Position numbers and translations under genes: made by a program. The notes below the pieces were generated by a model. That model saw only the letters and a list, made by a program, of their open reading frames with translations. It made no database searches and was not told the origin of the DNA. From Bacteroidota bacterium (GTDB taxonomy: Bacteria; Bacteroidota; Bacteroidia; 2-12-FULL-35-15), in contig JAJTCJ010000012.1 in NCBI GenBank assembly GCA_021323165.1, forward strand, positions 1 through 48,203: DNA of 48,203 nt, read 5' to 3'. Shown piece by piece: positions 25,046-33,694 of the stretch. The stretch's first letter is position 1, and each line of letters starts with the position of its first letter.

Positions 25046-26062
25046 ATGTTGGACCTAAATGGTAAATCAATTTTAATAACAGGGGGAACCGGTTCCCTCG
25101 GCAAGCATCTTACCAAAAATATTCTTACGCGATTTCCCCAGGTAAAACGACTTGTGATATTTTCCCGCGATGAACAAAAACAATTTGAGATGGCTCAGGA
25201 ATATCCCAATTCCAAATATCCTGCTATTCGTTATTTTATTGGAGATGTTCGTGATATCGATCGTTTAAAAAAAGCATTCAAGGGGATTGAGATCGTAATT
25301 CATGCAGCTGCGATGAAACATGTCCCAATCGCTGAATACAATCCGATGGAATGTGTTAAGACAAATGTATTGGGTGCAGAGAACGTGATAAATGCAGCAC
25401 TTGATACTGAAGTTAAAAATGTGGTAGCTCTTTCTACAGATAAAGCTGCAGCGCCAATCAATCTTTATGGAGCAACAAAACTTTGTTCAGATAAATTATT
25501 TGTTGCTGCCAATAATATAAGAGGACAACATGATATTAAATTTTCCGTGGTGCGATACGGGAATGTAATGGGATCGAATGGTTCTGTGATTCCTTTCTTT
25601 ATGAAAAAAAGGAAAGAAGGAATTTTACCTATTACAGATCCGAACATGACACGTTTCAACATTTCATTACAGGGTGGCGTGGATATGGTGCTGCATGCTA
25701 TTGAAACTGCATGGGGCGGTGAGATATTTGTCCCTAAGATCCCATCTTATAAAATTACCGATGTTGCTACGGCTGTTGGTCCGAATTGCAAACAGGAAGT
25801 TGTGGGGATCAGGCCGGGCGAAAAAGTCCATGAAGAAATGATCACGTCTTCTGATTCATTTACAACTTACGACCTTGGGAAATATTATGCTATACTTCCT
25901 CAGATGACTTCTTTTAAAATGGATGATTTTATTAAACATTTTAATGCAAAACTTGTGAAACAAGGTTTTCAATATAATTCCGGAGAGAATAAAGAATGGG
26001 TTGGAGTTGAGGAATTAAGATCATTGATAAAAGAACATGTAGATCCTGATTTTTCAATTTAA
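25046..26062 (+). CDS. pseB: UDP-GlcNAc 4,6-dehydratase (5-inverting)
   Basis: A 338-residue extended SDR. The nucleotide-binding TGGTGSLG is at 12-19, STDKA at 130-134 and the catalytic YGATK at 141-145. The short N-terminus, HAAAMKHVPIAEYNP and STDKA..PINLYGATKL..DKLFV are hallmarks of PseB/FlaA1 rather than of RmlB. The expected reaction makes UDP-2-acetamido-2,6-dideoxy-beta-L-arabino-hex-4-ulose, step one of pseudaminic acid synthesis. It is the first gene of a long operon and is followed after one base by pseC. Confidence 0.93.
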   Translation: MLDLNGKSILITGGTGSLGKHLTKNILTRFPQVKRLVIFSRDEQKQFEMAQEYPNSKYPAIRYFIGDVRDIDRLKKAFKGIEIVIHAAAMKHVPIAEYNPMECVKTNVLGAENVINAALDTEVKNVVALSTDKAAAPINLYGATKLCSDKLFVAANNIRGQHDIKFSVVRYGNVMGSNGSVIPFFMKKRKEGILPITDPNMTRFNISLQGGVDMVLHAIETAWGGEIFVPKIPSYKITDVATAVGPNCKQEVVGIRPGEKVHEEMITSSDSFTTYDLGKYYAILPQMTSFKMDDFIKHFNAKLVKQGFQYNSGENKEWVGVEELRSLIKEHVDPDFSI

Positions 26063-26063
26063 G

Positions 26064-27248
26064 ATGAGCATCGAAACTGATAAAGTGAATAGAATTATTC
26101 CATACGGAAGACAAACGATCACAGAAGCTGACATTGAGGCTGTAATCACGGCCTTAAAATCTGATTTTCTTACACAGGGACCTGCAATAGCAGAATTTGA
26201 AAAAGCCTTTGCAGATTATGTTGGCTGTAAATATGCAATTGCCTTAACTAATGGAACTGCAGCTTTACATCTTTGCGCAATGGCTTTGGATGTTAGTGAA
26301 AAAACCAGAGTTATAACAACACCGATCACTTTCGCGGCCTCAGCTAATTGTGTTAAATATTGTGGTGGGGAAGTCTATTTTGCAGACATAGACCCGAAAA
26401 CATTTCTTCTTGATATACATAAAGTCAGAGAACTTCTTCAGAAGCATCCTAAAGGATATTTTCATGGCATCATCCCTGTTGATTTCGCAGGAAGTGCAGT
26501 TGATCTCGAAGCATTTCGGAAGCTAGCTGATGAATACGGTCTTTGGATAATTGAAGATGCTTGTCATGCCCCGGGAGGATTTTTCAATGACAGCAGTTCT
26601 AAAAAACAAAAATGCGGGAATGGCAATTTCGCAGACCTCGCTATCTTTTCATTTCATCCTGTAAAACATATTGCAACAGGTGAAGGTGGAATGATCACTA
26701 CAAATAATAAAGAGCTTTACGAAAAACTGTTGCTGCTTAGAACTCACGGTATAACAAAAGATCTTACAAAGTTTAAGAATTCAGCTGAAGAAGTTCCTCA
26801 AGGTCCATGGTATTACGAAATGCAGGAACTTGGTTATAATTACAGGCTGACAGATTTCCAGGCATCACTAGGAATCTCACAACTAAGCAGAGCCGATGAA
26901 AATTTACAATGGAGAAAGAAAATAGCTGAGCGTTATGATAATGCGTTTTTAGATTCGGCTGTGGTTACTCCTTTGTCTGCTGAAGGCCATGCTTATCATC
27001 TTTACGTGATAAGATCAAAAAACAGAGCAAGGCTATACGATCATCTTAGAGCTAATAACATTTTCGCACAGGTGCATTATGTCCCTGTACATTTAATGCC
27101 TTACTATAAACAATTTGGTTTTAAAAAGGGTGATTTTCCGAATGCAGAAGCCTATTATAATGATTGTCTAAGCATTCCAATGTATCATTCTCTTTCAAAG
27201 GAAGACCAGCAATATGTGATAGATATGGTATTGAGCTTTAAAGGATAA
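26064..27248 (+). CDS. pseC: UDP-4-amino-4,6-dideoxy-N-acetyl-beta-L-altrosamine transaminase
   Basis: A 394-residue DegT/DnrJ/EryC1 aminotransferase. It shows SDFLTQGPAI.EFE near residue 33, the PLP-stacking region EDACHA (D165) and the Schiff-base lysine K201 in FSFHPVKHIATGEGG. Later QELGYNYRLTDFQA completes the family pattern. The PseC-type SDFLTQGP and the location one base after pseB make step two of the pseudaminate pathway the natural assignment. Cytoplasmic. Confidence 0.92.
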   Translation: MSIETDKVNRIIPYGRQTITEADIEAVITALKSDFLTQGPAIAEFEKAFADYVGCKYAIALTNGTAALHLCAMALDVSEKTRVITTPITFAASANCVKYCGGEVYFADIDPKTFLLDIHKVRELLQKHPKGYFHGIIPVDFAGSAVDLEAFRKLADEYGLWIIEDACHAPGGFFNDSSSKKQKCGNGNFADLAIFSFHPVKHIATGEGGMITTNNKELYEKLLLLRTHGITKDLTKFKNSAEEVPQGPWYYEMQELGYNYRLTDFQASLGISQLSRADENLQWRKKIAERYDNAFLDSAVVTPLSAEGHAYHLYVIRSKNRARLYDHLRANNIFAQVHYVPVHLMPYYKQFGFKKGDFPNAEAYYNDCLSIPMYHSLSKEDQQYVIDMVLSFKG

Positions 27249-27268: not shown

Positions 27269-28846
27269 ATGCGATCGTATTACAGTCATTTACAAGCAGT
27301 AAAAAGTGTCGGAGAAGAAGTATTGGTATCACAAAAACCAACATTCCGCTCTTCTGCTATATTTCCTGTGATCCACAATGCGGACTATTCTTCCAAAGTT
27401 ATTTTTATGGGGTATTGGCTCCTTAAAAGAAACATAAAAGAAATCGGTTTGCTTTATACTTTACGTGCGGCAGAAGGGAATATTATTTCAAGAAAATATT
27501 TACTCATCGATTCTGCCAAAGCATTTTCAATTCAATTGAGTGAGTTCAATGATTTGATCGGAGATAATTTCATTGGGTCTTTGGAGATGGAAATATTTTC
27601 AACCCAGGATCTTGTATATCCGTATCCGGCATTTGTACTAGTTTATTTTGGAGATCATTTCAGTACTGCCGTTCACACTGTCGGACGTATATACAATGAC
27701 ATTGAAGACCTTACAAAAAATGAAGAATACAAAGTTCGTGAATCCGGTTTTGATATTTACGGAAGTACGAATCTGTCTCCTTTTGTTTCTTTAACAAACG
27801 GACCAATAAAAAACGATCACCCGGAGATAACATATACCATTAATAATTCTAAGAAAAATTCGATTAAAGGAAAGTTTAATATTCCTGCACTTAAACCTTT
27901 TGAAACAGTTTTTGTAAAACTAAAAGATCATATCGATCTCTCTTCAATTCTTGGAAACGATGCAGGAACTATAACCTTAGGCCATAATTTTGAAGGTTTT
28001 TTTCCTCGTTTTGCTGTAGGAAATTTTGATGAAAAAGCTAAAACAGTTAGTATCACTCACTCCTATTACGATAGTTCAGCTATTGCAGATGAAAAATCGT
28101 TCTGGAATCGTAAGGACGAACTCTTTAATGACAGTTCTGTTGCGATTCCATTATATGTGACTGAAGGATATTATACCAGGATTGCCCTCTACCCTATTTT
28201 CTCTCCATCTGATTTCACCCTGTCCTACGCTTTTTACACTGAAGAAGGAAAACTTATAAAATTTTTGAAAGATTATCATCTTATTAAAAGCATTGATAAC
28301 AGATACGAACAAATTGACTTTGAAGAAATACTCAGTAAAGAAAACATTAATACTCTGGATACAAAGACCGTTAATCTTATTTGTAACTGGGAAGATAAAA
28401 CCAAAATACCTACTCGCGTGAAATTCGGGTTGAACGTAGGTAGCAAAGGCAGATCAACTGAATTACCTTCTAATATATGTTTTGCACCACAACTTGGTAA
28501 TCCGGCAGTATTGAAAAAAGCAGGAACATTTCGCTGGGCACCATTTGTAAATGCAGGCAGATCTGAAGTTGTACTAACCAATTCAGCTTCCCTTAAAGAA
28601 TATTCAAAACCGGCAAATGTTAAACTTAATTTCCATCGGGAAGAAGATGATCAAAGAATAAGCAGAGACGTTAAGATTGCCGCAAACGGTAGCTTAAAGA
28701 TCGATCTGGGTAAGGATGATGAGCTGAATATTTTCTTTAACGAAAAGAGTGGATGGATGACAGCACAGTCAGACAATCCTTTTTTAAACGGATATTATTT
28801 TGATTTTTTTGAAAGTGGCGCAGTGGGCGCTGATCATATATTTTAA
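27269..28846 (+). CDS. Unrecognised 525-residue beta-rich protein in the nonulosonate operon
   Basis: I do not recognise this family. The protein has no signal peptide, no membrane helix and no catalytic motif I can name. Composition is rich in alternating polar/aromatic residues, suggesting beta-sandwich or beta-helix structure. Two segments are loosely alike: one around residue 270 (ITHSYYDSSAIADEKSFW) and the C-terminal end (YYFDFFESGAVGADHIF). Both follow similar strand-rich stretches, so an internal duplication is possible. A conserved-looking PQLGNPAVLKKAGTFRWAPF lies near 410-430. It sits 20 bases after pseC and 35 before the methylase gene, inside the operon, so it most likely acts on the same sugar or its carrier. 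Possible roles (lyase, carbohydrate binding, transfer) cannot be separated by eye. Confidence 0.75.
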   Translation: MRSYYSHLQAVKSVGEEVLVSQKPTFRSSAIFPVIHNADYSSKVIFMGYWLLKRNIKEIGLLYTLRAAEGNIISRKYLLIDSAKAFSIQLSEFNDLIGDNFIGSLEMEIFSTQDLVYPYPAFVLVYFGDHFSTAVHTVGRIYNDIEDLTKNEEYKVRESGFDIYGSTNLSPFVSLTNGPIKNDHPEITYTINNSKKNSIKGKFNIPALKPFETVFVKLKDHIDLSSILGNDAGTITLGHNFEGFFPRFAVGNFDEKAKTVSITHSYYDSSAIADEKSFWNRKDELFNDSSVAIPLYVTEGYYTRIALYPIFSPSDFTLSYAFYTEEGKLIKFLKDYHLIKSIDNRYEQIDFEEILSKENINTLDTKTVNLICNWEDKTKIPTRVKFGLNVGSKGRSTELPSNICFAPQLGNPAVLKKAGTFRWAPFVNAGRSEVVLTNSASLKEYSKPANVKLNFHREEDDQRISRDVKIAANGSLKIDLGKDDELNIFFNEKSGWMTAQSDNPFLNGYYFDFFESGAVGADHIF

Positions 28847-28881: not shown

Positions 28882-29520
28882 ATGAAAACAGAACAAATAG
28901 ATTTTTGGAAAGGCGAATTTGGAAAAGAATATACAGACAGATGTACCTTTTCTGATGAAGAATGGGATAAGTTTTACAGTAAAACATGGGGGAAGACCAA
29001 AATTGAAATGAATAAAGGTTTCATTGGTAATTTATCGAAAGATATTAAGATCCTGGAAGTGGGATGCAATACAGGAATGCAATTGAATGGTTTGCAGAGA
29101 ATGGGGTTTGAAAATATTTATGGAGTGGAATTACAACCATATGCAGCTGAAGAAGCAAAAAAAAGAACAAAGAATATCAATATAGTTTGTGGATCGGGCT
29201 TCGATCTTCCATTCAAAGATTCTTATTTTGATGTTGTATGTACAAATGGTGTGTTGATACATATTTCACCTAATGACCTTCCGAAAATAATGCAGGAAAT
29301 GTATCGTTGCTCAAAAAAATATATTTGGGGATTTGAATATTTTTCAGAAAATGTTACTGAAATTAATTACAGAGGCCACAGCAATTATTTATGGAAGGCT
29401 GATTATGCAGCACTTTTTATCAAACAGTTCCCAGATCTGAAACTGGTAAAAAAAGAAATGTATCCATATCTTGATAATCCATCGAATGTTGATTATATGT
29501 ATCTTTTAGAAAAACAATAG
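28882..29520 (+). CDS. Pseudaminate-biosynthesis-associated SAM methyltransferase
   Basis: A 212-residue class I methyltransferase. SAM motif I ILEVGCNTG is at 57-65 and an acidic motif II (YGVELQPYA) follows. Motif IV appears as FDVVCTNGVLIHISP. The N-terminal TEQIDFWKGEFGKEYTDRC and the GVLIHI..NDLPK..QEM pattern match what I know of the pseudaminic-acid-associated methylase group. The probable substrate is a nonulosonate or its precursor; the methylated position is unknown. Confidence 0.83.
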   Translation: MKTEQIDFWKGEFGKEYTDRCTFSDEEWDKFYSKTWGKTKIEMNKGFIGNLSKDIKILEVGCNTGMQLNGLQRMGFENIYGVELQPYAAEEAKKRTKNINIVCGSGFDLPFKDSYFDVVCTNGVLIHISPNDLPKIMQEMYRCSKKYIWGFEYFSENVTEINYRGHSNYLWKADYAALFIKQFPDLKLVKKEMYPYLDNPSNVDYMYLLEKQ

Positions 29521-29548
29521 CTTCTCATTTGAGTTTAATTTGAATAAC

Positions 29549-30286
29549 ATGTCTCTTTCAAAACCTCATATAGGTATTATAACTCAAGCCAGGATGACCA
29601 GCACCAGGTTGCCTGGGAAGGTCTTTAAGGAAGTTAATTCAAAATCTTTGTTACAATACCATATTGAAAGATTAAAAGAAACAGGTTTCGACATCGCCAT
29701 TGCTACGACCACTAACGATACTGATGATTGCATATCTGAATACGCAAATCAACAAAAAATAAATGTTTTTCGAGGAAGTGAAACAGATGTTTTAAGCCGA
29801 TATTATGGAACTGCATCAAAATACAATTATGATATTTTAGTCCGCGTAACTTCTGATTGTCCGCTTATAGATTCGCATTTGATCAGGAACAGCATTGAAA
29901 AATATCTTCAGTTGAACAACTCTAAATTGTATATGAGTAATGCTCTTGAAAGAACTTTTGCGCGTGGTTTCGACTTTGAAATATTCTCATTTGAATTGTT
30001 AAAGGAAGCTTTTGAAAAAGCAACTCTTGAATCAGAAAGAGAACATGTTACACCATTTATCTGGAAGAATATCCCTGGAAATGTAGAATTCTACCATGTC
30101 AAACAAAGCATCGACAATAGCCATTTGCGTATAACTGTAGACACAAGCGATGATTTTGAATTAATAAGGACTTTGATAGAAAAGTATCATGCTGATAAAT
30201 TGAATTACGTGGAGATCGAAACACTACTAAATGAACATCCTGAATTGGTAAGCATTAATGCACATATTGAACAAAAAAAACTATGA
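29549..30286 (+). CDS. SpsF/PseF-like cytidylyltransferase
   Basis: 245 residues from the ATG at 29549 (a TTG at 29540 is possible but less likely). The nucleotidyltransferase signature IITQARMTSTRLPGKVF is at the start; DTDD, VFRGSETDVLSRYY and VRVTSDCPLID follow. This is the SpsF-like branch of CMP-sugar synthetases rather than the NeuA branch. It should activate the nonulosonic acid with CTP. Its stop overlaps the next ATG (ATGA at 30283). Confidence 0.83.
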   Translation: MSLSKPHIGIITQARMTSTRLPGKVFKEVNSKSLLQYHIERLKETGFDIAIATTTNDTDDCISEYANQQKINVFRGSETDVLSRYYGTASKYNYDILVRVTSDCPLIDSHLIRNSIEKYLQLNNSKLYMSNALERTFARGFDFEIFSFELLKEAFEKATLESEREHVTPFIWKNIPGNVEFYHVKQSIDNSHLRITVDTSDDFELIRTLIEKYHADKLNYVEIETLLNEHPELVSINAHIEQKKL

Positions 30287-31119
30287 AAAAAGATCCTATC
30301 GTTGACAAGAAGAAATTTGAAGAAGAAGGTTATTTAGTTGTAAAAAATGTTTTTTCACCGGAAGAAATAGAACAGTTTAGAAGTGATGCTTATAAACAGT
30401 ACGAAAACGACAGCAAAAAAGGATTAAATTATGATATTACTAAAACAAACGCGCGTTCTTTACGTGGAGATCTTTTAAGCAAAGATTTGATGAGAAAGAT
30501 CATCCTTGATGAAAGAGTGTTGGATATTGCCAGAAAAATACTCGGACCTGATATTGTTTATTTTGGAGACAGCAATTTTCAATTTGGAGTAGGTTTCAGA
30601 GGTTTTCATCGCGACAATGTGGATCGTGAATTTAATAACGGCCCTGATTGGGATGGAGATTATAATATAATTCGTATGGGATTGTATTTGCAGGATCACA
30701 GTAAATACAGCGGAGGATTAAAGATCAAAAAAGGATCTCATAAAAATGCTTCCGGAAAATCAATTATATTAAATACTAGTCCTGGTGACCTTGCATTATG
30801 GAGTTTAAGAACATTACACAGTGGCAATGCTGTTCGCCTTAAGCTTATGCCAAATTTTTCAGTAGATTATTTTGAACGCTTTGTTCCTGCCTTCCTGAAA
30901 GTAGATGAGCCAAAGGAAAGAGTTGGATGCTTTTTTACATTTGGGGTAAAAGGCAAGCATCTGGACAGATATATAAGTGAATATATGCTTAAGGCAAAAC
31001 CTGTTTTAGAAAACCTAAAAAATTCTCCTTTAAATGAAGGAGTATTAGATGAACTTAAATCAAAGAAAGTAACTTTGATCAGGCCAATGGTGAATGCAAC
31101 TGAACAAAATTCAAAATAA
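30283..31119 (+). CDS. Phytanoyl-CoA dioxygenase (PhyH)-like Fe(II)/2-oxoglutarate oxygenase
   Basis: A 278-residue protein. FEEEGYLVVKNVFSPEEIEQFR is the PhyH N-terminus. The iron-binding HxD is in FHRDN near residue 108, and the distal histidine in LRTLHSGN near residue 187. PhyH proteins hydroxylate or desaturate small molecules with 2-oxoglutarate and oxygen. Its place between the cytidylyltransferase and PseG genes, coupled by ATGA to the former, suggests oxidation of the nonulosonate or a substituent on it. The substrate is inferred, not known. Confidence 0.8.
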   Translation: MKKDPIVDKKKFEEEGYLVVKNVFSPEEIEQFRSDAYKQYENDSKKGLNYDITKTNARSLRGDLLSKDLMRKIILDERVLDIARKILGPDIVYFGDSNFQFGVGFRGFHRDNVDREFNNGPDWDGDYNIIRMGLYLQDHSKYSGGLKIKKGSHKNASGKSIILNTSPGDLALWSLRTLHSGNAVRLKLMPNFSVDYFERFVPAFLKVDEPKERVGCFFTFGVKGKHLDRYISEYMLKAKPVLENLKNSPLNEGVLDELKSKKVTLIRPMVNATEQNSK

Positions 31120-31122
31120 AAC

Positions 31123-32592
31123 TTGAAAAAACACCGTATAGTATTCAGGGCGGATGGAGATCTGATTGCAGGCTACGGGCATGTTATAAGATCTCTCAGC
31201 TTAGCATCTATCCTCAAGTCGAAATATCATTGTGTATTTATAATTCGTGAACCCGATCAGTTTCTGAAACAAGAAATAGAAAAAATTTGCTCTGAAATTG
31301 TTGAAGTTCCTAAAGCAGTAAATTACAACAAGGAAGCTTCACAGATCACCAAAAAAGTCATAAACACAAATGATATTGTGATTCTGGATGGATACCATTT
31401 CGATTCAAAATATCAGTTAATTATAAAAAAATCTGCTTACAAGGTTGTTTGTATAGATGATATTTATGATAGACATTTCACATCAGATATTGTCATTAAT
31501 CATAGTGAAGGTATTAAAGAATCTAACTATTCAAGAGAATTTTACACGAAGCTTTATCTCGGATCAAAATATGCTATCCTAAGGAAATCTTTTTTAACAA
31601 ATGCCAAACGCGAATTAATCCCTGAAACTTCAGAACAGCATGTATTTATCAGCATGGGAGGCACTGACCAAAAAAATTTTACTGAAAAAGCGTTGACATT
31701 GTGTTTAAAGCAAAAAAACATTACCGCAATCGATATTGTTGTCGGCAGCTTCTATGCTCATTTAGAAGAGCTCAAAGTAATTATATCACGCAACAAAAAC
31801 ATTAAGATAAAAATACATTCAAATCTGAATGAGAAAGAGATATCATCTCTGATGAAAAAATCAACATTTGGAATTTGTTCAGCCAGTACTGTTTCTTATG
31901 AATATAGTTGTACAGGGGGAATTTTATTTTTGTATCAAACTGTTTCTAATCAAAAGAAAATATTCGAATTTTTGATTAAGACCGGGTCAGCATTTCCAGC
32001 TGAAGATCTTAATAAAAAAAGCAGTTTATTAAATTCAAAAAAACTTAAGACAGAATATTTTAATCTGCGAAAACATTATTTTTCAGGTAATTCGGCTGAA
32101 AATCTTGAAGCCATTTTTTCAAAAATAGAATCCGAGCGGGGAATATCAATAAGAAAAGCTGCTATCAGTGATTTACAAATATATTTTAAATGGGCAAATG
32201 ATCCGGAGGTAAGACATAATTCTATCAATACCTCTCAAATTTCACTTGAAGGCCACAATAAGTGGTTTAAATTGAAACTAAAAAACAAAACATCCATTTT
32301 GTATGTTATCGAAAAATCAGGGATTGCTATCGGACAGGTTAGACTTGATAAAGATAAAAATGGTTGGGAAATCGACTATTCTATTGCCAAACAATTTCGG
32401 GGTAAAGGATTTGGAGAGATCATTCTGAGGAATGCGATCCTTCAATTCAGAAAAAAACATATGGATAAAATTATTGGAAAAGTAAAACAGTCTAATGTAC
32501 CTTCTTGTAAAGTTTTTGATAACCTGAACTTTGTTAAGTCAAAAACATTTAAAATTGAGAATATTGTTTATAACATGTACACATTAGAATGA
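31123..32592 (+). CDS. PseG-PseH fusion: UDP-sugar hydrolase plus GNAT acetyltransferase
   Basis: A 489-residue protein starting at TTG, 3 bases after the previous stop. Residues 1-~340 are PseG-like: FRADGDLIAGYGHVIRS at the N-terminus (H20 corresponds to the catalytic His of PseG), VCIDDIYDR, ISMGGTDQKN and a GT-B-like C-terminal half with ICSASTVSYEYSCTGG. Residues ~345-489 are a GNAT domain: IRKAAISDLQIYFKWANDPEVR and QFRGKGFGE, the acetyl-CoA-binding loop. Together they cover N-acetylation of UDP-4-amino-4,6-dideoxy-AltNAc and removal of UDP, normally two genes (pseH, pseG). Confidence 0.88.
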   Translation: MKKHRIVFRADGDLIAGYGHVIRSLSLASILKSKYHCVFIIREPDQFLKQEIEKICSEIVEVPKAVNYNKEASQITKKVINTNDIVILDGYHFDSKYQLIIKKSAYKVVCIDDIYDRHFTSDIVINHSEGIKESNYSREFYTKLYLGSKYAILRKSFLTNAKRELIPETSEQHVFISMGGTDQKNFTEKALTLCLKQKNITAIDIVVGSFYAHLEELKVIISRNKNIKIKIHSNLNEKEISSLMKKSTFGICSASTVSYEYSCTGGILFLYQTVSNQKKIFEFLIKTGSAFPAEDLNKKSSLLNSKKLKTEYFNLRKHYFSGNSAENLEAIFSKIESERGISIRKAAISDLQIYFKWANDPEVRHNSINTSQISLEGHNKWFKLKLKNKTSILYVIEKSGIAIGQVRLDKDKNGWEIDYSIAKQFRGKGFGEIILRNAILQFRKKHMDKIIGKVKQSNVPSCKVFDNLNFVKSKTFKIENIVYNMYTLE

Positions 32593-32629
32593 CCTACTAT
32601 CGGCTCTGTACTAATTGCCAAAGTATTCT

Positions 32630-32637
32630 TACATTTG
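32630..32637 (+). promoter_or_regulatory. Possible internal promoter (-7 box) before the synthase gene
   Basis: TACATTTG matches TAnnTTTG in the only sizeable gap (67 bases) of the middle of the operon. An ATTG lies only 12 bases upstream, closer than usual, so support is moderate. Confidence 0.4.
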
Positions 32638-32659
32638 CATCCTAATTTATTCGCTTCAC

Positions 32660-33694
32660 ATGAAAAAAATAATCAATACCAATTTTTTCCGAATAGGTGA
32701 AGACCAACCTTGTTATATTATTGCCGAGATTGGCAGTAACCACAATGGAAACTACGACATGGCCTGCGAGCTAATTGAAAAAGCAGCGGCCTGCGGAGTT
32801 AATGCCGTAAAATTTCAAACCTTTAAGGCTAAGGACCATTATTCTAAAAAAACTCCCAAAATAGGACTATATAAAGAAGGAATTTATGAGTTAATTGAAA
32901 AACTTGAAATTGATAGAAGCTGGCATACAAAGCTGTCTGCTTTATGTACAAAATTAAAGATCGATTTTTTAGATTCGCCCTGCGACAAGGAGGCTATTGA
33001 TATTGCTGTTTCGGTTGGAATGCCAATAATAAAAATTGCTTCTTATGATATGGTTGATGGCAGATTGGTTAGTGAGATCGCTAAAACCGGCAAAGGCGTA
33101 ATGTTTTCGACCGGAATGTCAAGCACTTCAGAGATAGAGACGGCAGTCAATATCTGCAGATCAAATGGAAATGATAATATTATAGTTCTTCAGTGCACTT
33201 CGTTATATCCTGCTCCTGCACATTTAACCAATCTGAAAACAATGAATACAATTGGTAATATGTTCGGAGTGATTACCGGCTATTCTGACCACACGCTTGG
33301 CGACCATATTCCTTGTGCGGCTGTAGCTATGGGAGCCAAAGTGATCGAGAAACATTATACCTTAGGAAGAGGATTACCCGGACCGGATCATAATTTTGCA
33401 ATTGAACCGGAAGAATTAAAAGTAATGGTAAGCAGAATGCGTGATATTGAAAGCGCTATAGGAGATGGTATTAAAAATGGTCCGCGTGAAGAAGAAATGG
33501 AGCTTTATACAAAAGCCAGAAGAAGTATCATTGCCAAAACAAAGATCAATAAAGGACATATAATAACCGGAAATGATATTGTGATTAAAAGACCCGGCTT
33601 AGGGATACATCCATCACAGATCGAATTAGTAATAGGTAAAAAGGCTATTAAAGATATTGAAGAGGATGAACCGATAACCTGGGATATGATATGA
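32660..33694 (+). CDS. Nonulosonic acid synthase, NeuB/LegI type with SAF domain
   Basis: 344 residues from the ATG at 32660; an earlier ATG-like start at 32615 adds 15 residues outside the family and lies over the -7 box. The TIM barrel shows YIIAEIGSNHNGN, NAVKFQTFKA, GYSDHTLG and GAKVIEKHYTLGRGLPGPDHN. The C-terminal ~60 residues are an antifreeze/SAF-like domain. Members condense a 6-deoxy hexosamine or ManNAc with phosphoenolpyruvate. The IGSNHNG and GPDH motifs are those of NeuB/LegI; classical PseI has ANH.G and a different (E/V)DS..S stretch. The surrounding genes are pseudaminate-type, so the exact product is uncertain. Its stop overlaps the next ATG. Confidence 0.87.
   Translation: MKKIINTNFFRIGEDQPCYIIAEIGSNHNGNYDMACELIEKAAACGVNAVKFQTFKAKDHYSKKTPKIGLYKEGIYELIEKLEIDRSWHTKLSALCTKLKIDFLDSPCDKEAIDIAVSVGMPIIKIASYDMVDGRLVSEIAKTGKGVMFSTGMSSTSEIETAVNICRSNGNDNIIVLQCTSLYPAPAHLTNLKTMNTIGNMFGVITGYSDHTLGDHIPCAAVAMGAKVIEKHYTLGRGLPGPDHNFAIEPEELKVMVSRMRDIESAIGDGIKNGPREEEMELYTKARRSIIAKTKINKGHIITGNDIVIKRPGLGIHPSQIELVIGKKAIKDIEEDEPITWDMI

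Follow-up and report, generated by a model that had tools for sequence, protein, structure and literature searches.

A conserved, apparently undescribed protein family marks a sub-type of Pse operon in Bacteroidota

Bacterial surfaces carry pseudaminic-type sugars, whose variant-specific modifications are poorly mapped. Judged by description, the O-glycan gene cluster of Tannerella forsythia resembles the locus analysed here, as it contains pseB–pseC, further Pse genes and interspersed hypothetical genes, for which the paper gives no function (PMC6120980). At the protein level, a comparison is offered by the ASRAH domain, an eight-stranded sandwich that forms tetramers or occurs as tandem dyads and tetrads, has a Trp at strand 1 and a nearly absolute Asn ending strand 2, and has been proposed to bind sugar (De Souza et al. 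2009, PMC2739507). Intracellular ASRAH forms are encoded beside sugar-metabolism genes.

The stretch of DNA analysed, referred to as the window, comprises 48,203 nucleotides from a Bacteroidota bacterium (contig JAJTCJ010000012.1). It holds a Pse-operon set, with PseB, PseC and PseG above the NCBIfam cut-offs and PseH, a synthase and a cytidylyltransferase recognized by domain. Gene X, the subject of this analysis, lies within this set:

25046–26062 (+), pseB (TIGR03589; NCBIfam)
26064–27248 (+), pseC (TIGR03588; NCBIfam), 20 nt upstream of X
27269–28846 (+), gene X, 525 aa, no known family (ORF and homologues)
28882–29520 (+), SAM methyltransferase (TIGR03587; NCBIfam), 35 nt downstream of X
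29540–33694 (+), remaining nonulosonate genes: cytidylyltransferase, PhyH oxygenase, PseG–PseH fusion and NeuB/PseI-type synthase (family and domain matches)

PseB, PseC and the methylase scored 511, 479 and 244 bits, respectively. An earlier note, made from the sequence without database searches, had placed a 525-residue ORF between pseC and a methylase and described it as locked into the operon by short gaps; its coordinates proved exact, and the gaps and both neighbours were confirmed. Only two terminator-like patterns were found between 24900 and 29600, inside pseB and pseC, a count equal to chance expectation. The TIGR03587 methylase (Pse_Me-ase), a SAM methyltransferase in its own right, shows no similarity to X; its substrate is putative, and NCBIfam ranks it as a 'hypoth_equivalog'. 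The sfm flagellin-modification genes of Shewanella were also considered as a parallel and rejected, as none of the five described encodes an X-like protein.

X starts with ATG and encodes a protein of 59.6 kDa with a pI of 5.9. Hydrophobicity analysis revealed neither a signal peptide nor a transmembrane segment (highest 19-residue Kyte–Doolittle mean, 1.0), in agreement with the earlier note's description of a soluble protein, and X is thus predicted to be cytosolic and to stay inside the cell. Single-sequence and profile searches of Pfam, NCBIfam, PHROG and PDB returned no significant match. The best sub-threshold matches of X itself had E values of 0.2 (Pfam), 2.5 (NCBIfam) and 0.12 (PDB), the best PHROGs match (0.05) belonged to one member of the X family, and no family was common to the matches of different members in these four libraries. 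The earlier note had likewise been unable to place X; the family is absent from the libraries searched and apparently undescribed.

We found X homologues in ten other genomes, all Bacteroidota, with 58–70% identity; nine copies are full-length and one is split over two contigs. Among 84,980 species genomes, scanned by a method that requires near-exact peptide patterns, X was recovered from Spirosoma terrae, S. validum, S. endophyticum, S. profusum, one Spirosoma metagenome-assembled genome (MAG) and two Cytophagales/Cytophagaceae MAGs. Profile searches, which like our other genome searches covered Bacteroidota only, added two genomes of the same class but a different order (G568 and G543) and also G977; distant relatives may thus exist in other phyla. 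In the window's order, the 35 further genomes all lacked X, and in a class sample it was absent from 392 of 395 genomes. Within that sample, TIGR03587 occurs in 19 genomes; the three genomes with X are all among them, and the remaining 376 genomes lack X. In a phylum sample, every match other than the window's own was at chance level, and no relatives were found in the plasmids, phages and viral contigs searched. Weak phylum-wide matches of the single sequence were set aside as probable chance, their best-supported cluster (L006) being PurH.

Between Spirosoma species, dN/dS was 0.055–0.093 for X and 0.056–0.094 for PseC. Identity to the window was likewise similar for the two proteins, at 71% (X) and 72% (PseC) in G568 and 60% and 63% in S. 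validum. X is thus under purifying selection and evolves at about the pace of PseC; this, together with its presence in ten other genomes, shows that X is a real, conserved gene.

All homologues found sit in Pse-type, nonulosonic-acid gene clusters. PseC lies directly upstream of X in 10 of 11 genomes, the exception being G543, where X follows a YfhO gene and has no adjoining PseC. The next gene encodes a SAM methyltransferase in all ten loci whose downstream side is visible. This is the TIGR03587 methylase in three loci (the window, G568 and G543) and a TylF-type gene in the other seven, six of which continue with the TIGR03587 methylase, so that this enzyme is immediate or next-but-one to X in 9 of 10 loci. 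For its own reading, the earlier note had regarded a strong match to a characterized enzyme family, or homologues scattered away from sugar genes, as contrary evidence. The neighbourhood survey that it proposed showed the reverse of such scatter, and no characterized family was matched.

Several genomes that lack X have the genes for PseC and the methylase side by side. In G435, a genome of the same genus as the window, an MBOAT acyltransferase and a 346-aa protein with no Pfam match lie between pseC and the TIGR03587 methylase (L063, 4757–7276). The operon thus seems to be variable at this slot, and X gives the impression of an optional addition to a conserved gene set. X and the MBOAT pair occur together in G543, so they are not simple replacements of each other. 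Moreover, X is missing from 16 of the 19 class genomes with the methylase, which shows that the methylase does not need X in general. X is the hallmark of a distinct Pse-operon sub-type, in which it forms a constant additional component.

We used AlphaFold2 with nine sequences to generate a predicted structure for X (pLDDT 70.6, pTM 0.71); a model from the single sequence was discarded (pLDDT 32). The earlier note had called X beta-rich, and the model agrees: it shows four beta-sandwich domains in tandem that share one topology, with a period of about 131 residues and a short tail in front:

27269–27337 (+), N-terminal tail, residues 1–23 (MRS..SHLQ....GE), conserved, low confidence in the model (alignments A1 and A2; model)
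27338–27739 (+), predicted domain D1, residues 24–157, ending in the highly conserved loop 136–157 (HTVGR.YND.EDL..N.EY) (model)
27740–28132 (+), predicted domain D2, residues 158–288, with conserved GHN..GFFPRF.VGN...SITHS.YDSS; last strands of low confidence (model)
28133–28498 (+), predicted domain D3, residues 289–410 (model)
28499–28843 (+), predicted domain D4, residues 411–525, with Trp423 in strand 1 and Asn438 at the end of strand 2 (model and alignment)

In the model, the repeat unit comprises five strands, a short helix and three strands. The third strands start at residues 59, 186, 316 and 449, the helices at 90, 224, 351 and 484. The autocorrelation of secondary structure reached r = 0.52 at lag 131, a value attained in none of 500 element shuffles, and r = 0.68 at lag 261. 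The sequence by itself, independently of the model, supports these repeats: the maxima were at lags 390 and 261 for mean profile similarity, at 116–134 and 254–266 for banded alignment scores and at 262 for hydrophobicity. In a comb test the best period was 129–131, equalled by 3 of 1,000 column shuffles when only that period was considered and by 16 of 1,000 over all periods. On the basis of predicted fold and sequence periodicity, X is probably (D1–D2)x2, that is, four repeats in a two-by-two arrangement.

The earlier note had suspected an internal duplication giving two similar domains. The strongest repeat signal, at lag 261–262, does fall between the halves, but the repeats are four, of about 131 residues each, and in the self-alignment it called for, neither the two halves nor the single domains aligned significantly with each other (hhalign), leaving the repeats visible through the periodicity tests only. 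Its pairing of YYDSSAIAD with YYFDFFESG as matching ends of the halves was mistaken, as these positions are not equivalent; in the model, GFFPRF (243–248) instead pairs with GYYFDF (508–513). The latter belongs to the conserved C-terminus of D4 (NG.YFDF...G.V.ADH.F). In the Foldseek search that it also proposed, the matches listed for the whole chain were generic multi-domain beta proteins, mostly extracellular, with a TM score of about 0.1.

Invariant polar residues concentrate in loops. In loop 136–157, 14 of 22 positions are invariant, and a second cluster spans residues 239–288, between D2 and D3; many of the invariant residues in these two loops are H, D, E, R or Y, among them H136, D144, H239, H264 and D268. 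The two loops likely form a functional surface, located where the model is least certain (pLDDT below 50). The N-terminal tail, conserved and non-hydrophobic in the alignment, is a possible docking peptide.

We compared X with the ASRAH/ASRT superfamily (Pfam PF07100; PDB 2II7 and 1NC7); the choice of this family was not blind. In the model, which is of moderate confidence, D1, D3 and D4 share the order of five strands, helix and three strands, whereas D2 is incomplete. The Trp is found in D4 only, as invariant Trp423 following Arg or Lys, and is missing in D1–D3, while the Asn is found in D2 (Asn177) and D4 (Asn438) and is missing in D1 and D3. The four repeats in one chain recall an ASRAH tetrad in layout, a homology of the repeats to ASRAH being putative; X differs in being a single 525-aa chain encoded in Pse operons. 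Using an ASRT profile built from ten sequences, D4–ASRT was the top of ten profile pairs (hhalign score 18.1), a score equalled by 17 of 500 shuffles with four domains tested, and the other X domains stayed at background level. On the whole of X, the profile lands at residues 414–509, beginning at the D4 boundary and in register. There was no PF07100 match in X or in genome G000, and no ASRT among the 50 Foldseek matches listed. The SHExxCxxN ligand motif, which belongs to the ASRT-like family only, is absent from X, D4 strand 2 reading SEVVLTNS with neither His nor Cys. ASRT membership was not accepted, given a non-significant match in sequence and the failure of two features. The resemblance in strand order, D4 Trp/Asn and tetrad layout is a lead rather than a sign of membership.

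On balance, we tentatively favour X as a cytosolic, probably non-catalytic sugar-binding accessory of the nonulosonic-acid (Pse-type) pathway that would serve the neighbouring methylation step. Its occurrence, in the genomes searched, only in nonulosonate clusters with a methyltransferase next to it in every visible locus points in this direction, as do the lack of export or membrane signals, the four predicted beta-sandwich domains with their sequence periodicity, the invariant polar loops and the ASRAH-like strand order, Trp and Asn of D4. The domains would bind a nonulosonate, its nucleotide-activated form or an intermediate, with loops 136–157 and 239–288 as the putative binding site. X may then present the bound sugar to the neighbouring methylase or methylases, or co-assemble with them, the N-terminal tail being the candidate docking peptide; the outcome would be a modified sugar made by some lineages only. 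Weighing against such an accessory are the weak similarity to ASRT in sequence, the moderate model with its poorly predicted conserved loops, the lack of X in most class genomes that carry the methylase, the G543 copy without adjoining PseC, and the many conserved charged residues, which could equally belong to an enzyme.

This last point leads to the main rival, which we consider possible but somewhat doubtful: X may be a novel enzyme acting on the nonulosonate or a precursor, to which it would add, for example, an N-acyl, amidino or O-linked decoration; its active site would lie in the conserved interdomain loops of a multi-domain beta-sandwich frame. Purifying selection as strong as that on PseC and two loops rich in invariant H, D, E, R and Y would suit an enzyme, and the MBOAT acyltransferase and 346-aa protein of G435 occupy the slot as if alternative decorating activities were housed there. 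However, X is similar to no enzyme family, its predicted fold is repetitive and all-beta with no recognizable catalytic domain, and in G543 it accompanies the MBOAT pair.

We think it unlikely that X serves as a scaffold or assembly factor, keeping the pathway enzymes, among them PseC and the methylase, together without itself binding sugar. Ig-like repeats in tandem are a typical feature of binding scaffolds, and the conserved tail and the fixed position between pseC and a methyltransferase gene are consistent with such a role. Most Pse operons nevertheless work without X, and this includes operons that have the same methylase; its conserved residues gather in loops, as for a ligand site; and the G543 copy adjoins the methylase but not PseC. 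Export of X, as a surface or structural protein that carries or binds the finished glycan, is very improbable, since despite the tandem Ig-like beta domains common on cell surfaces and the mostly extracellular Foldseek matches, it has no signal peptide or transmembrane segment and its conserved N-terminus is non-hydrophobic.

Returning to the favoured accessory, we know of no carrier or allosteric partner of this kind in nonulosonic-acid pathways. The chances seem evenly balanced that X founds a new family, either as a covalent tetrad of sugar-binding beta-sandwich domains by which a sialic-acid-like sugar and its methyltransferases would gain a carrier or allosteric partner in the cytosol, or as a wholly new beta-sandwich sugar-modifying enzyme. 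Because X marks a Pse-operon sub-type beside TIGR03587 methylases of putative substrate, it could be a handle that makes the methylation step testable.

Several other genes of these clusters deserve mention. The nonulosonate synthase of the window (32615–33694, +) scored 359 bits against N-acetylneuraminate synthase (NeuB, TIGR03569) and 288 bits against PseI (TIGR03586), below both cut-offs; the end product may therefore not be plain pseudaminic acid. The preceding gene (31123–32592, +) encodes a 489-aa PseG–PseH fusion, with PseG (TIGR03590) above cut-off and a C-terminal PseH/GNAT domain; the fusion recurs in G568 (L032), whereas in Spirosoma PseG and PseH are encoded by two individual genes. 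A PhyH-type oxygenase (30283–31119, +), kept in G568, G011, G435 and G977, represents a possible further sugar-modifying step. In G568, a 267-aa protein with no Pfam match directly follows the methylase (L032, 7342–8145), and its LGCGYGFN motif looks methyltransferase-like. A 594-aa protein of G543 (L033, 13691–15475), judged by sequence, is an apparent fusion of a NeuB/PseI-type synthase with a cytidylyltransferase-like domain, and a similar 590-aa protein is found in G549 (L075). Finally, the cluster of the window starts with an MptE-like protein (PF01973; 23281–24192, +) bearing a VLGNGPSL-type motif, a protein that is kept in several Pse clusters with and without X; since PF01973 and the core of Maf flagellin glycosyltransferases are related, this protein could be the nonulosonate transferase.
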